In this document: positions 16,178 to 39,173 of the stretch, in pieces | Layout: each line of letters begins with the position of its first letter | Numbering within the stretch: the stretch's first letter is position 1 | Source of the DNA: Bryobacterales bacterium | GTDB lineage: Bacteria; Acidobacteriota; Terriglobia; Bryobacterales; Bryobacteraceae | DNA length: 64,000 nt | Assembly (NCBI GenBank): GCA_003135055.1 | Contig: PLDF01000373.1 | Location: 28,644 to 92,643, forward strand | Reading direction: 5' to 3' | Translations under genes and position numbers: made by a program | Notes under the pieces: model-generated | The model's input: the letters and a program-made list of their open reading frames with translations, nothing else | Told to the model about the DNA's origin: nothing | Databases searched by the model: none

Positions 16178-17188
16178 TTGCCGGAAATCCGTGTCTCCGT
16201 TATAATTCCTACACTTTCAGCGGATTTGAGGCTGTCGGAATGTCTGCAATCGCTCAGTTTGCAATCCCGGAGCGACTTCGAAGTGATCGTGATAGACAAT
16301 AGCGGCCAAGGTCTGGTTCGCCGGAACGGTCTGGCGGTGGACGCCCGGGTGATCGAAAACACACGCAACGCCGGTTTTGGCGAGGCCGTTAACCAGGGGC
16401 TGCGCGCCTCCGCCGCCCCCTACCTGGCAACGCTCAACGACGACGCGGTTCCGCGGCCGAACTGGCTGGATGCCCTGCTGGAGGCGATCGAGCGGCGGCC
16501 GGATGTGGGCATGTGCGCTTCGCAAGTCCGGCTTTTCGGCGAAGACATGCTCGATTCCGCGGGGATGCTGATTGCCCGGGACGCCAGCAGCAAACAGCGC
16601 GGCCATGGGCGGCCGCCGGCGGATTTCCCCGTGGCGGAAGAGACGCTTTTCCCCAGCGGATCGGCCGCACTCTACCGCCGCGCCCTGCTGGAAGAGACCG
16701 GCGGATTCGACCCCGGCTTTTTCCTCTATTGCGAGGACACCGATCTCGGCCTGCGCGCCCGATGGGCCGGGTGGAAGTGCCTGTACGTTCCGGAAGCCGT
16801 GGTGGAGCATCACTATTCCTATTCGGCCGGGCGCGCTTCGCCCGTGAAAGCTTACTACGTGGAACGTAATCGCTTGTTCGTGCTGGCGAAGAATTTTCCG
16901 GCGGGAATGCTGCTTGCGGCGCCGTTCGCGGCGCTGGCGCGCTATTTATGGCACGCCTGGTATCTGCTGCAGGGCCGTGGCAGCGCGGCCCGTTTCCGCG
17001 CCGAAGGCAATGCCGGTCCCAAGATGCTCTGGTACGTTGTGCGCGCTCATGCCGCGCTGCTGGGGGCGCTGCCGCGGCTGTGGCGGCAGCGGCGGCAGAT
17101 TCGCGCCCGCGCCAAAATCACCCCGGCGGTGTTCCGGCATCTTGTGCGCAGCCATTCCATTAGCGCCAGAAGGGTCGCCGCGCTGTGA
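16178..17188 (+). CDS. Glycosyltransferase family 2 (rhamnosyltransferase-like)
   Basis: RVSVIIPTLSADLRLSECLQSL...VIDNSGQG...ATLNDDAVPRPNWL...GGFDPGFFLYCEDTDLGLRARWAGWKCLYVPEAVVEHHYS. Confidence 0.9.
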   Translation: MPEIRVSVIIPTLSADLRLSECLQSLSLQSRSDFEVIVIDNSGQGLVRRNGLAVDARVIENTRNAGFGEAVNQGLRASAAPYLATLNDDAVPRPNWLDALLEAIERRPDVGMCASQVRLFGEDMLDSAGMLIARDASSKQRGHGRPPADFPVAEETLFPSGSAALYRRALLEETGGFDPGFFLYCEDTDLGLRARWAGWKCLYVPEAVVEHHYSYSAGRASPVKAYYVERNRLFVLAKNFPAGMLLAAPFAALARYLWHAWYLLQGRGSAARFRAEGNAGPKMLWYVVRAHAALLGALPRLWRQRRQIRARAKITPAVFRHLVRSHSISARRVAAL

Positions 17189-17937
17189 AGCGTCCTTTGG
17201 ACCCCGGCTCGCTGCTGGTTATTATTCCGGCATTCAACGAGGAAGGCGCCATAGCCCTCGTGGTTCGTTCCGTCTTGCGTCACGTACCCGATACGCCGGT
17301 GCTGGTGATCGACGACTCATCGACGGACGGCACCAGAGCGGCGGCGCGAGCGGCCGGCGCCGAGATGCTCTGCCTGCCGCATCATCTGGGGCTGGGCGGC
17401 GCCGTCCAGGCGGGCTATAAGCTGGCATTCGAGCTGGGTTTCGAGTATGTCATCCGCGTGGATGGCGACGGCCAGCACAACGCCGCCGATATCCCGCGAA
17501 TCTTTGAAGCGCTCAAGACCTCGGGCTGCGAAATGATCATTGGGTCGCGCTTTGTGGAAGGCGCCGGCTCGTCGTCAAGCTTCGCGCGCACGCTGGGCAT
17601 CCGTTTCTTTCGCGCGGTGCTTCGCCCCATCCTCGGGAAACGGGTTCACGACCCGACTTCGGGCTTCGTGGGCGTCAACCGGCGCGCGCTGGAGGTCTTC
17701 AGCCACAGCTTTCCGCTGGAATATCCGGAGATCGAGGCGCTGGTGGTGCTGCAGCGCCGGCGCTTCCGCTTTCAGGAGGTGCCTTGCAAGATGTATCGGC
17801 GCGTGGCGGGGCGTTCTTCCATCACCAGGCTGAAATCGTTCTACTATATAGCCCATGTGCTTCTGGGCGTGTTCATGAACGTGCTGAAATACGAACGCCG
17901 GTCGCGACGCGGCTCCGATGCTGGGGCTGGAGGATAA
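17185..17937 (+). CDS. Glycosyltransferase family 2, dolichyl/polyprenyl-phosphate mannosyltransferase-like
   Basis: LLVIIPAFNEEGAIALVVRSVLRHVPDTPVLVIDDSSTDGT...VIRVDGDGQHNAADIPRI...GSRFVEG...DPTSGFVGVNRRA. Confidence 0.9.
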   Translation: MKRPLDPGSLLVIIPAFNEEGAIALVVRSVLRHVPDTPVLVIDDSSTDGTRAAARAAGAEMLCLPHHLGLGGAVQAGYKLAFELGFEYVIRVDGDGQHNAADIPRIFEALKTSGCEMIIGSRFVEGAGSSSSFARTLGIRFFRAVLRPILGKRVHDPTSGFVGVNRRALEVFSHSFPLEYPEIEALVVLQRRRFRFQEVPCKMYRRVAGRSSITRLKSFYYIAHVLLGVFMNVLKYERRSRRGSDAGAGG

Positions 17938-18290
17938 ATGGATCAACGCATTGTGGGGCGGACCCCCTGGTCACTCCCCTGGTCCGCGCGGGTCCCCTGG
18001 ACCTCTTCGCGCAGCCAAATCTGCCCAGTGCAGTACCTGAATGACCGACCAGGGGGTCGGCGGCGGATTAGTAAGATGACCGCGCGGCCTTGCGCTCTTG
18101 TCGACAACCACTCCCTTACGGTCGTGGCTCCGTTCGGAGCCGCGCGCGTCAGCAAGCGGTCTTTTGGTAGCACCAAATCTCGCGCTCGGAGAACCAGCAC
18201 TACTACCCATGCCGAACACCGGAATTGTGGGCCAAGTAAGTGGCATGGGCCGAAGCGCCTGCCCCATTTTGGCGCGGGAGGATAAATGGA
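17929..18290. repeat. 348-bp repeat-rich insertion bounded by a 14-bp direct repeat GGAGGATAAATGGA
   Basis: GGAGGATAAATGGA at 17929-17942 and 18277-18290; interior has a 12-bp inverted repeat (17961-17972 / 18047-18058) and a family A copy (18111-18160). Confidence 0.8.
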
Positions 18291-18639
18291 CCGACTCTTA
18301 AACGTCACGACTGCCGTCAGCATTGTCCTGCTGCTGATGGTGCTGGTTTCCATCCGCCGCGCGCATATCCGCGTCGAGTATTCCATGAGCTGGCTGTTTG
18401 CGGCATGCGGTTTGCTGGCGCTTTCGCGGTGCAGGCCGGCGCTCAATTTCGTGGCGAGCCGTATCGGCCTGGGCGCCGATTCCCCGCTGGCGCTGTTTTT
18501 GATAGGCGGCTCGGTGTTTCTGATTATGTTTTTCCGCTACTCGATCATCGTGTCTCACCTGCGCGACGATAATATCGCCCTGGCGCAGCGCGTTGCGATT
18601 CTCGAGTTCCATATTCGCAATTCAGGCAACCATGGGTAA
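18286..18639 (+). CDS. DUF2304-family small membrane protein
   Basis: MDRLLNVTTAVSIVLLLMVLVSIRRAHIRVEYSMSWLFAACGLLALSR; typically next to DPM-like GT2. Confidence 0.8.
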   Translation: MDRLLNVTTAVSIVLLLMVLVSIRRAHIRVEYSMSWLFAACGLLALSRCRPALNFVASRIGLGADSPLALFLIGGSVFLIMFFRYSIIVSHLRDDNIALAQRVAILEFHIRNSGNHG

Positions 18640-18644
18640 TAGAC

Positions 18645-20387
18645 ATGGCTAAAAAGCACGCACCCGCGCGCGCTTCGCAACCGCCCGCATCCAAAGCGGC
18701 TGTTGCGCCCGCGCGATGGCCGGTCTTCGCCGCGTTTGCGGCCGCGCTCGCCGTGGTGTTATGGGCCTACGGCCCGGCGTTTCACGGTCCATTTCTATTC
18801 GACGACACGACCTTACCCTTTGCCTTGCCCGGCTTCGCCGATCCGCTGATCACCTGGATCCGCAGCGACCGCCCGGTGCTCATGTTCACCTACTGGTTGA
18901 ACGCGCGGATCTCGGGGAGCGACCCGTATTCCTACCACGTCTTTAACCTTGCCATTCACTGCGTTACCAGCGCGCTGGTTTTCGCGATCGTGCGCCGGTT
19001 TCTGGAATGGTCCGGTGTGGAAGCCCGGCGGCGCGAGCTGCTGGCGGCTTTTTCGGGGCTGCTCTTCCTGCTGCATCCCGCGCAATCGGAAGCGGTGGCC
19101 TATCTTGCGGGCCGGTCGGAAGCGCTGAGCGTGATGCTGGCATTCGCCGCATTTGCCGTCTTTATCTACCGCCGCCAGACACGGGTGGGCTGGTGGACGG
19201 CGCTTGCCGTGATGCTTCTTTTCGTGGCCTCGCTGCTCACCAAGCAGCAAACTATCGCGCTGCCGGCGCTGCTGCTGCTCACCGATTTCTGGTGGAACCC
19301 CGGCTTCTCATTGCAGGGAATCCGCGCGAACTGGAAGCTGTATGCGCCGCTCGCGCTCGGCTCCGCGGCGGGCATCGCGTTCTTCTGGCGCCTGATAACT
19401 ACCGCGACCACGGCTGGCTTCGGGCTCAAGGACCTCACCTGGTATCAATACTTTTTCACCGAGTGCCGCGCCCTTTTCGTCTATCTCCGCGAATTCGTTT
19501 TGCCTTTCGGCCTCACCGCCGATTGGGATTTTCCTATCTCCAGGACCATCCTCGATCGCGGCGCGGTTTTCGGGCTGGCCGCGTTGCTGGCGCTGGCTGC
19601 CGCCGCATGGCATTACCGGCGGCGCTACCCGCTGGCGGCGTTCGGTTTCTTTACGTTCCTGGTGGCGATGGCGCCCACCTCTTCGATTCTGCCCATTCGC
19701 GACCCCATCGCGGAATACCGCCTTTACTTCGGTATTCTGGGCCTGATTCTGGCCGCGGCCGGCCTGCTGAGCCGGGTCAAATTACCGCGCGCTACGCTGG
19801 CCGCCGCCTGTGGTGCGGTGCTGCTGATTTTCGCCGTGGCCACGCACGCACGGGCAGAAGTCTGGGGGAATGCCATCGCGCTTTGGCAGGACACCGTGGA
19901 AAAATCGCCGGACAAAGCCCGCGCCCACTTTCAACTCGCCAGCGCTTACGCCGACGCCGGCGAATGCGAACAGGCCTCCGCCGAGTACGAGAAGACTGCG
20001 CGCTTTCCGCCGGTGGACTATAGGCTCCCCGACCTATTGGTGGATTGGGGCCTCGCTCTCGAATGCGCCGGGCAGCAGCAGCCGGCGCTTGACAAACTTC
20101 GCGCAGCGGCAGCGATGGAGCCGACGGCGCATGTTTACACGCAAATCGCCAAGGTGTATGGGGAGCATTCGCAATGGAGCGAAGCCCTGGACGCGCTTGC
20201 CGAAGCGCAAAAGATCGACGCCAGTTTCGCCCCCATCTACGCCTACAAGGGCATCATCGACTACCAGACCAACCGCTTCGCCGAGGCGATCGCGGAATAT
20301 CGGCACGCGCTGGCGCTTGACCCAAGGCTCGAACCGGCCAAGACGGGGATGGCTGCGGCGCAGCAGCGCCTCGCGGCCGGACGCTGA
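18645..20387 (+). CDS. Polytopic membrane protein with C-terminal TPRs, TMTC/PMT-like glycosyltransferase
   Basis: Many TM helices, FDDTTLPFALP...RPVLMFTYWLNARISGSDPYSYHVFNLAIH...LHPAQSEAVAYLAGRSEALS, then TPRs. Confidence 0.8.
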   Translation: MAKKHAPARASQPPASKAAVAPARWPVFAAFAAALAVVLWAYGPAFHGPFLFDDTTLPFALPGFADPLITWIRSDRPVLMFTYWLNARISGSDPYSYHVFNLAIHCVTSALVFAIVRRFLEWSGVEARRRELLAAFSGLLFLLHPAQSEAVAYLAGRSEALSVMLAFAAFAVFIYRRQTRVGWWTALAVMLLFVASLLTKQQTIALPALLLLTDFWWNPGFSLQGIRANWKLYAPLALGSAAGIAFFWRLITTATTAGFGLKDLTWYQYFFTECRALFVYLREFVLPFGLTADWDFPISRTILDRGAVFGLAALLALAAAAWHYRRRYPLAAFGFFTFLVAMAPTSSILPIRDPIAEYRLYFGILGLILAAAGLLSRVKLPRATLAAACGAVLLIFAVATHARAEVWGNAIALWQDTVEKSPDKARAHFQLASAYADAGECEQASAEYEKTARFPPVDYRLPDLLVDWGLALECAGQQQPALDKLRAAAAMEPTAHVYTQIAKVYGEHSQWSEALDALAEAQKIDASFAPIYAYKGIIDYQTNRFAEAIAEYRHALALDPRLEPAKTGMAAAQQRLAAGR

Positions 20388-22317: not shown

Positions 22318-22827
22318 GTGACAATCGATGAAATACGCGAGTTGATCGCGCTCGCCAATGAGACTGGCGTAGCCGAACTCGAGGTGCAGCGGGGTGAAGA
22401 CCGCGTCCGCATCCGGCGGGCCGGGTTTGCCAATCCGCAGGAAATCGTGGCCGGGCCGATGGCCGGCGTTCACGCCGCCGCTCCTCCGGCTATTGCGGCT
22501 CCTCACGCGGCCCCTCAAGCGGCGCCTCAGACGGCGCTTCAGGCAGCCCACGAGCCAACCGCCAAGCCGGCTGGTCCCGACCCGGACCTCACCCTGGTCA
22601 AATCGCCCATCGTCGGCACTTTCTATGAATCGCCTTCTCCGGGCTCGGCGCCGTTTGTGCGCATGGGCGAGCGCATCCAACCCGGAAAAGTGCTGTGCAT
22701 TATCGAGTCCATGAAGCTCATGAATGAGATTGAGGCTGAGACATCGGGCATCGTGGAGAGCAGACTCGTGATGAACGGACAGCCGGTGGAGTACGGGGAG
22801 GCTCTTTTTGCCATCCGTGCGGTTTAA
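22318..22827 (+). CDS. accB: Biotin carboxyl carrier protein of acetyl-CoA carboxylase
   Basis: [33 protein letters not shown]...[51 protein letters not shown] start assumed. Confidence 0.92.
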
Positions 22828-24181
22828 GAAAGTCCTCATTGCCAACCGCGGGGAAATCGCAGTCCGCGTCATCAGCGCTTGCAAGGAATTGGAAATCCAG
22901 ACCGTCGCCGTCTATTCAGAGGCGGACCGCTACAGCTCCCATGTGCGTTTCGCGGACCAGGCCATCTGCATCGGCCCGGCAAAAAGTGCGCGCAGCTATC
23001 TGGACATTCCGTCGATCATCAGCGCCGCGGAAATCACCAATGTCGATGCCATCCACCCCGGGTATGGCTTCCTCAGCGAAAATGCCAATTTCGCCGAGGT
23101 GTGCGAAGCGTCCCACATCAAGTTTATCGGGCCCAATCCGGAAGTCATCCGGCTGATGGGAGTTAAGGAGCGCGCCCGCGCGTACATGCGGGAGATGGGC
23201 GTGCCGGTGCTTCCCGGATCGCCGGGAGTGATCGCCTCGCCCGAAGAGGCGCTGGCTATGGCGGCGCAGATCGGCTACCCGGTGATTTTGAAGGCGTCGG
23301 CGGGCGGCGGCGGGCGCGGCATGCGGGTGGTGACGGGCCCGGACGAAATACCGGCGCTCTACGCCCAGGCGCAGTCGGAAGCGGGTGCGGCGTTCAGCTC
23401 GGCGGACGTCTACCTGGAGAAGTTCATCGGCGCGCCCCGGCACATCGAATTTCAAGTGCTGGCCGACGAGCACGGCAAGGTCGAGATTCTAGGCGAGCGC
23501 GAATGCAGCATCCAGCGGCGGCATCAGAAGCTGGTGGAGGAAGCGCCCTCGCCCGCGGTAACGGACCAGCAACGGGCGCAGATTGGCGCCCTGCTGCGCA
23601 AAGCCATCTCCGCGGCGGGCTATACCAACGCGGGAACGGTGGAATTCCTGATGGACGAGAGCGGCAAGCTCTACTTCATCGAGGTGAACGCGCGCATTCA
23701 GGTGGAACACCCGGTGACGGAGTTCGTGACCGGCATCGATATGGTCAAGAGCCAGATCCGCATTGCGCAAGGCGAGCCGCTGAGCGAAGTGCTGCCCGGC
23801 CCCATTGAGATGCGCGGCCACTCGATCGAGTGCCGCATCAATGCCGAGAACCCGGACACATTCGTACCCTCGCCGGGGCGCATCACCGGGTTTCACGTGC
23901 CCGGCGGCAACGGAGTGCGCGTGGATACGTGGGCATACACGGATTGTGTGATTCCGCCGTTTTACGATTCGCTGGTGGCCAAGCTGATTACTTATGGCAG
24001 CGACCGCGGCGAAGCCATCCGGCGCATGCAGCGGGCGCTCAGCATGTTTATCGTGGAGGGAATCCACACCTCCATTCCGCTGCAGCAGCGGATTCTCGCC
24101 GACCCCGATTTTCAGGCGGGACGCTTCGATACGAACTTCATTAAGCGGTATATGCCCGTGAAGAGCGAGCCGGCAGGTTAG
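22808..24181 (+). CDS. accC: Acetyl-CoA carboxylase biotin carboxylase subunit
   Basis: [52 protein letters not shown]...[22 protein letters not shown]...[12 protein letters not shown]. Confidence 0.95.
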
Positions 24182-25030: not shown

Positions 25031-25210
25031 GCCTCGTCCGCCTGCCCGCGCGATCTTCTTTCACCATATGCGCCTGGTTACCAGATCTGGCGGAATCGGG
25101 AGCGCATCCACGCTCGAAGTTGTCCGCGCTGGCTGTCATCACCGGCAACGCGGCGAACGTGCGCCTTCCGCTTTCAATTGAAGGATCTCGCGCCGGCAAC
25201 CGATCTGGCG

Positions 25211-25444
25211 CGGCTTAAGAAAGTCCTCATTGCCAACCGCCGGGAAATCGCAGTCCGCGTCATCAGCGCTTGCAGGGAATTGGAAATTCAGACTGTCGCC
25301 GTCTATTCCGAGGCGGACCGCTAAAATTCCGGCGTGCGTTTCGCGGACCAGGCCATCTGCATCGGCCCGGCAAAAAGTACGCGCAGCCATCCGGACATTC
25401 CTTCGATCATCAGCGCCGCGGAAATCACCAATGTCGATGCCATC
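25211..25444 (+). pseudogene. Partial duplicate of accC 5' region
   Basis: cttaagaaagtcctcattgccaaccgccgggaaatcgcagtccgcgtcatcagc... closely matches 22820-23053; in-frame TAA in the copy (GGACCGCTAAAAT); homology ends abruptly after gatgccatc. Confidence 0.92.
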
Positions 25445-33593: not shown

Positions 33594-33846
33594 AATACGG
33601 TCTCGTATTTCGACAAGACCACTCCCTCACGGTCGTGCCTCCGAACGGAGCCGCGCGCGTCAGCATGCGGTGTGGGAATACGTGTCCGAACTTTCGAAAC
33701 GGTGTACTTAGTTAGTACCCCGTTTTATAAATACGGTCTCGTATTTCGACAAGACCACTCCCTCACGGTCGTGCTCCGAACGGAGCCGCGCGCGTCAGCA
33801 AGCGGTGTGGGAATAGGTGGCCGAACTTTCGAAATGGTGTACTTAG
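33594..33846. repeat. Tandem direct duplication (136-bp period) each carrying a family A palindromic element
   Basis: tacggtctcgtatttcgacaagaccactccctcacggtcgtg...cggtgtgggaata.gtg.ccgaactttcgaaa.ggtgtacttag at 33596 and 33732. Confidence 0.88.
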
Positions 33847-38728: not shown

Positions 38729-38845
38729 CGCAGGACCGCCTGAGTTTACTCTAATCGCGACTGCCACGTGTCAAGTACTGTGTCTGGCTTGGTGTCTGGC
38801 TGCGACGCTTCAGCGTTTTCGGGATTTCCTCGCTCGGCCGCGAAA

Positions 38846-38925
38846 CCGCACTCCCTAACGGTCGCGGCTCTGTCTCGGCTGCGTGTGTGTGCAAATAGTT
38901 AGGCGGCCGCGACCGTGAGGGAGCG
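38846..38925. repeat. Inverted pair of family A half-elements
   Basis: ccgcactccctaacggtcgcggc (38846-38868) facing gccgcgaccgtgagggagcgg (38905-38925). Confidence 0.75.
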
Positions 38926-39173
38926 GATTTTGACCGGCGTTTCCCGAATCCGTTTAAGCACCCGTCTGGCTGCGACGCTCCGTATTACACGCTCGGGCAG
39001 ATCTGCTATCCGTCGTGCGATGGATGCTTTCGCGCCAGTGTCGACGGTGTACGAGCCGTGTTCGGGAGGCGATCCGAGGGCCCGGCATTCGCTCTCATCG
39101 GACGCCCGCAACGACCGCGGATGAAATGCGGTGAACGGGCCGGATGCGCACGCAGCTCACAACACTCCGGGTC

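Follow-up and report, generated by a model that had tools for sequence, protein, structure and literature searches.

REP, BIME and REPIN sequences are GTAG-tagged palindromes present in many copies and associated with RAYT transposases (TnpA-REP, HUH/Y1), whose genes are flanked by inverted cognate repeats. They are usually described as extragenic, and target duplications are not described for them (PMC3733652, PMC2817692, PMC3116915). The route by which REPs disseminate has been stated to be unresolved (PMC8266576), and our search of open-licence papers turned up none that reports REPs inserting with a duplication of the target. Two other kinds of element are relevant: bacterial MITEs, short non-coding repeats that are moved by DDE transposases and make direct target duplications, and the Rickettsia palindromic elements (RPE), which are tolerated in or beside coding sequence while the genes are kept (PMC10969869, PMC3733652). 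In the stretch of 64,000 nucleotides analysed here (the window), we describe an insertion of dispersed repeats that duplicated at least 14 bp of its target.

The insertion lies on the forward strand between an intact GT2 glycosyltransferase gene (17185–17937; Pfam PF00535, Glycos_transf_2, E = 2.1e-21) and an intact DUF2304 gene (18286–18639; PF10066, E = 1.9e-14), whose protein is up to 71% identical to those of relatives. A pattern search of the window placed the plus-strand sequence GGAGGATAAATGGA at 17929–17942 and again at 18277–18290, 348 bp apart, as the preliminary description had reported, so that the insert proper spans 334 bp (17943–18276). The GT2 stop codon TAA ends at 17937, inside the left copy, while the DUF2304 ATG is inside the right copy, which supplies the ribosome-binding site and start of that gene. 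Since the duplicate carries ribosome-binding site, stop and start together, neither gene was broken: the left copy preserved the end and stop of GT2, and the right copy the ribosome-binding site and start of DUF2304. The match extends further into the flanks with two mismatches over 21 bp (TGGGGCTGGAGGATAAATGGA versus TGGCGCGGGAGGATAAATGGA), and the duplication may once have been longer than 14 bp. Between the left copy and the first repeat, seven nucleotides of filler (TCAACGC, 17943–17949) resemble by eye the DUF2304 codons that follow the right copy (CCGACTC) and may represent a decayed continuation of the duplication.

Comparison with relatives in the Bryobacterales indicates the direction of change. 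The source genome comprises 10.7 Mb in 515 contigs, with an estimated contamination of 9%. A GT2 gene lies upstream of DUF2304 in 77 of 80 named relatives, with a gap of −16 to 45 bp that is exactly 0 in 19 of the 77, and in a first whole-genome set the GT2 stop abuts the DUF2304 ATG in all five of the closest relatives, as ranked by DUF2304. Four relatives (L201, L212, L216 and L266) carry the exact 14-mer once, at the GT2/DUF2304 junction, and thus preserve an empty site. Because relatives show a tight junction and a single 14-mer, the 334-bp insert represents the derived state, and the second 14-mer arose as a duplication of the target. The ancestral arrangement suggested earlier, a GT2 stop directly abutting the DUF2304 start, is supported by these junctions, and none of the relatives compared had the same spacer without the duplication. 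Likewise, no tandem duplication of the junction lacking an insert was seen among the 80 relatives.

The insert is pieced together from three families of dispersed hairpin repeats, namely a REP, a MITE-like element and a REP-like arm. The first part (17950–18067, plus strand) is a family B REP-like hairpin repeat (GTGGGGCGGACCCCC...), 71–86% identical to other copies in the same genome and lacking the last ~25 bp found in them. It contains the 12-bp inverted repeat already noticed in the preliminary description, with the left arm GACCCCCTGGTC at 17961–17972 and the right arm GACCAGGGGGTC at 18047–18058. Family B is dispersed and of high copy number, with at least 49 matches in the genome (40 of 128 candidates scored), and its copies start with GTAGGGCGGACC or GTGGGGCGGACC (24 and 23 occurrences in 1.2 Mb), that is, with the GTAG/GTGG tag of REPs. 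The second part (18068–18198, plus strand, ends estimated by eye) is a MITE-like repeat of family A, subtype A2, up to 92% identical to other copies. This family A element had also been pointed out before and is real, since the stretch 18077–18198 has dozens of partial copies in the genome. Copies of A2 have ends like CTAGTACCGTGACCG and CGGTCGCGGTACTAG, and only some are flanked by duplications (22–23 bp and imperfect at L141, 11 bp at L160). The third part (18199–18276) is an arm that resembles by eye the stretch following B in other copies, has weak matches elsewhere and terminates in the inverted REP-like sequence CCTGCCCCATTTTGGCGCG.

The ends of the whole insert, TCAACGCATTGTGGGGC and, in reverse complement, CGCGCCAAAATGGGGC, have no more than a GGGGC core in common and do not form terminal inverted repeats. 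No second composite of B, A and arm was found in our copy search of the genome, and Rfam gave no match in 17500–18700. Because the composite occurs at no other locus, we regard the insert as a mosaic rather than a cassette seen moving as a unit. The earlier suggestion of a composite mobile cassette that duplicated the junction therefore holds for a repeat insertion having duplicated the junction; the single cassette is not supported. Elsewhere in the window, a family A element occurs as two tandem copies with a 135-bp period (33594–33846), and a 235-bp direct repeat, 93% identical, is found at 22819–23053 and 25210–25444, 2.4 kb apart, its first copy inside a biotin-carboxylase-like ORF.

A plus-strand ORF of 115 codons (17938–18285) runs through the insert, using the start and stop of the duplicated junction, and its TAA abuts the DUF2304 ATG; the ORF list confirms this earlier observation. 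It might be argued that the insert is functional and under selection, the open bridge coupling DUF2304 translation to GT2 or the hairpins tuning the operon. The open frame and the abutting stop speak for this; nevertheless, about 3% of such inserts would carry an open bridge in matching frame by chance alone, and the codon-position G+C of the ORF (0.59/0.64/0.66) differs from that of the neighbouring genes and carries no coding signature. The ORF has no Pfam match and is absent from all relatives compared. We consider a selected function very improbable and the bridging ORF most likely accidental, although it is possibly translated.

The junction described above is not the only one of its kind. 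Three further insertions of the same type, missed in the preliminary description, are present in the same genome between genes that lie close together or overlap in relatives (gene names other than GT2 and DUF2304 were read by eye from the sequence). At L135, F/K REPs lie between a DUF1553-type and a DUF1501 gene, which are spaced by 2–4 bp in relatives L280 and L281; the duplication measures 34 bp and its copies are 85% identical. At L140, a 34-bp insert with one M-type REP separates GMC-oxidoreductase-like and epimerase genes and 37 bp are duplicated; these genes overlap by ATGA or GTGA in L310 and L311, which are distant (proteins about 40% identical). At L150, gltB and gltD, which in most relatives overlap by 8 bp (ATGGGTAA), are split by H, K and F repeats, and 58 bp of the gltB end are duplicated at 83% identity. 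At all three loci, the upstream gene retains its end in one copy, and the second copy is found at the start of the downstream gene or immediately ahead of it. The decay of one duplicate copy suggests that these events are old. Also at L140 (8107–8177), the last nucleotides of the insert are CCCGATG; the duplicated copy next to it contains the inverted complement, CATCGGG, possibly a trace of fold-back DNA synthesis.

We also looked at flanking duplications more broadly, scanning ~2.17 Mb (a fifth) of the genome, in which 501 palindromic-repeat islands were mapped. Strong duplications flank 13 of 489 islands versus 3.0 expected from random non-island sites (within 80 bp, score ≥12) and 17 islands versus 4.1 expected within 120 bp (score ≥13), an excess that is exploratory because window sizes and score thresholds were settled with the data in view rather than fixed beforehand, and in which a few scored cases are gene-internal repeats (L148, left out as examples). 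No exact flanking repeat of at least 12 bp was found within 80 bp of the A, B or D cores; the excess emerged once further families were included, the flanks widened, imperfect matches allowed and random sites taken as controls. When all spaced duplications were scanned, repeat islands were enriched no more than twofold (17 versus 8.5), a signal diluted by other repeats. A detectable duplication is thus present at only a few percent of islands, and at almost none of the B or D islands without A.

Duplications differed between kinds of island. Duplications of 9–17 bp flank the MITE-like elements that end in sequences such as GGGTGCTTAAACGG (window 38794/38964, L104, L132, L196, L077, L111 and L070), while islands of other REP-like families have longer, partly decayed ones (34 bp at L135, 37 bp at L140, 58 bp at L150, 21 bp at L069 and 22–23 bp at L141); the PadR-like gene at L069 was excluded as an empty-site case, its start not being clearly alignable in relatives. 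Two elements are worth recording: a family A1 MITE-like element in the window (38794–38979), flanked by a perfect duplication of 16 bp, GTCTGGCTGCGACGCT, and bearing the end GGGTGCTTAAACGGATTCGGG; and a small one at L073 (17035–17142) with 21-bp inverted ends (CAATGCCGTTCACTTAGGCGC), an 11-bp duplication (GCGGCTAGATT) and a family I palindrome inside, which resembles an IS4-type MITE.

A candidate source of REP mobility is encoded in the same genome. At L091, an ORF of 193 amino acids with a Y1_Tnp domain lies between inverted copies of family B and is the cognate RAYT transposase gene of that family. Three further RAYT genes of the genome are flanked by families I, E and F/K, which suggests several REP–RAYT pairs within one genome (L090, L091, L093 and L094, on contigs C163, C218, C394 and C452, with families I, B, E and F/K, respectively).

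How did the insertion arise? A REP-derived composite was inserted where the GT2 stop abutted the DUF2304 start, duplicating at least 14 bp, and we infer that it probably arose in strand synthesis. Staggered nicks or a broken end would have been filled in at the target, and REP DNA copied or ligated into the gap during that synthesis; RAYT nicking is no more than a candidate for the initiating step. The A2 element may have joined the B-plus-arm unit earlier or later than the insertion at the junction. Strand synthesis would account for duplication lengths of 14–58 bp, for filler beside the repeats and for mixed families, and these features fit it better than a transposase with a fixed stagger. 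The IS200/IS605 relatives of RAYT are described as making no larger target duplications (PMC2817692), which counts against a RAYT-initiated event. Because of its 14-bp duplication, the composite insertion was not filed as a standard REP event. We extend this reading to the REPs of these acidobacteria only tentatively and with considerable doubt: they would spread by a reaction, possibly started by a RAYT nick, that differs from known single-strand transposases in leaving variable duplications of 14–58 bp, and would thereby enter abutting or overlapping junctions with both genes intact. Insertions with a duplication stand out at tight junctions through survivorship, since one that made no duplication would leave a gene damaged there.

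Ordinary MITE transposition, with a DDE transposase acting in trans, decayed terminal inverted repeats, a 14-bp target site duplication and REPs as passengers, is a serious rival, because 14 bp falls inside the 9–17 bp range of the MITEs with GGGTGCTTAAACGG... ends in this genome. One of these (L132, 11283) contains a B repeat, and the insert begins with TCAACGCATTGTGGGG, loosely similar to the TTAAC..TTTTGGGG with which two of them begin. No such terminal repeat is found at the right end of the insert, however, and duplications of 34–58 bp at the other junctions are too long and variable for one transposase; we consider this explanation unlikely, if worth keeping in view. A two-step origin, in which a tandem duplication of the junction came first and repeats settled between the copies later, seems improbable to us: tandem duplications of short stretches occur commonly, and sequence between the copies would be free of selection, but the repeats would need to have landed exactly between copies four times, and an empty tandem duplication was seen in 0 of 80 relatives.

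The two 14-mers might, finally, be independent ribosome-binding-site/start motifs. Combinations of this sort are constrained, and the same 14-mer is present at the junction in four relatives; each of those relatives has exactly one copy, though, at the GT2/DUF2304 junction. The window holds no third copy even with two mismatches allowed (mean of 0.32 matches in shuffles), and no exact copy was found in 1.2 Mb of the genome beyond the two junction sites. A common motif at unrelated gene starts, raised in the preliminary description as a possible objection, finds no support in the window or in these 1.2 Mb, and a coincidence is scarcely credible.

These insertions bear on two matters. Their empty sites and their readable duplications, variable in length, record the reaction and open it to testing. 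In addition, a dense operon can accept a mobile repeat without gene loss when the stop/start signal is rebuilt by duplication.

Set against the systems described so far, the locus shares features with each. Family B is like the REPs of REP/RAYT systems in its GTAG/GTGG start, its copy number and the inverted cognate repeats that flank its RAYT gene; unlike known REPs, it was inserted here with a 14-bp duplication (34–58 bp in the sister cases), where the description of IS200/IS605 would predict no larger one, and with families mixed. Bacterial MITEs are similar in being short non-coding repeats with a direct target duplication, here of 14 bp and with an empty site in relatives; unlike them, the insert as a whole has no matching inverted ends, and duplications in the sister cases are longer and variable. 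Like the RPEs, finally, the insert is a palindromic repeat tolerated beside coding sequence with the genes kept; whereas RPEs are translated in frame inside a gene, this insert lies between two genes and is tolerated through the duplicated junction.
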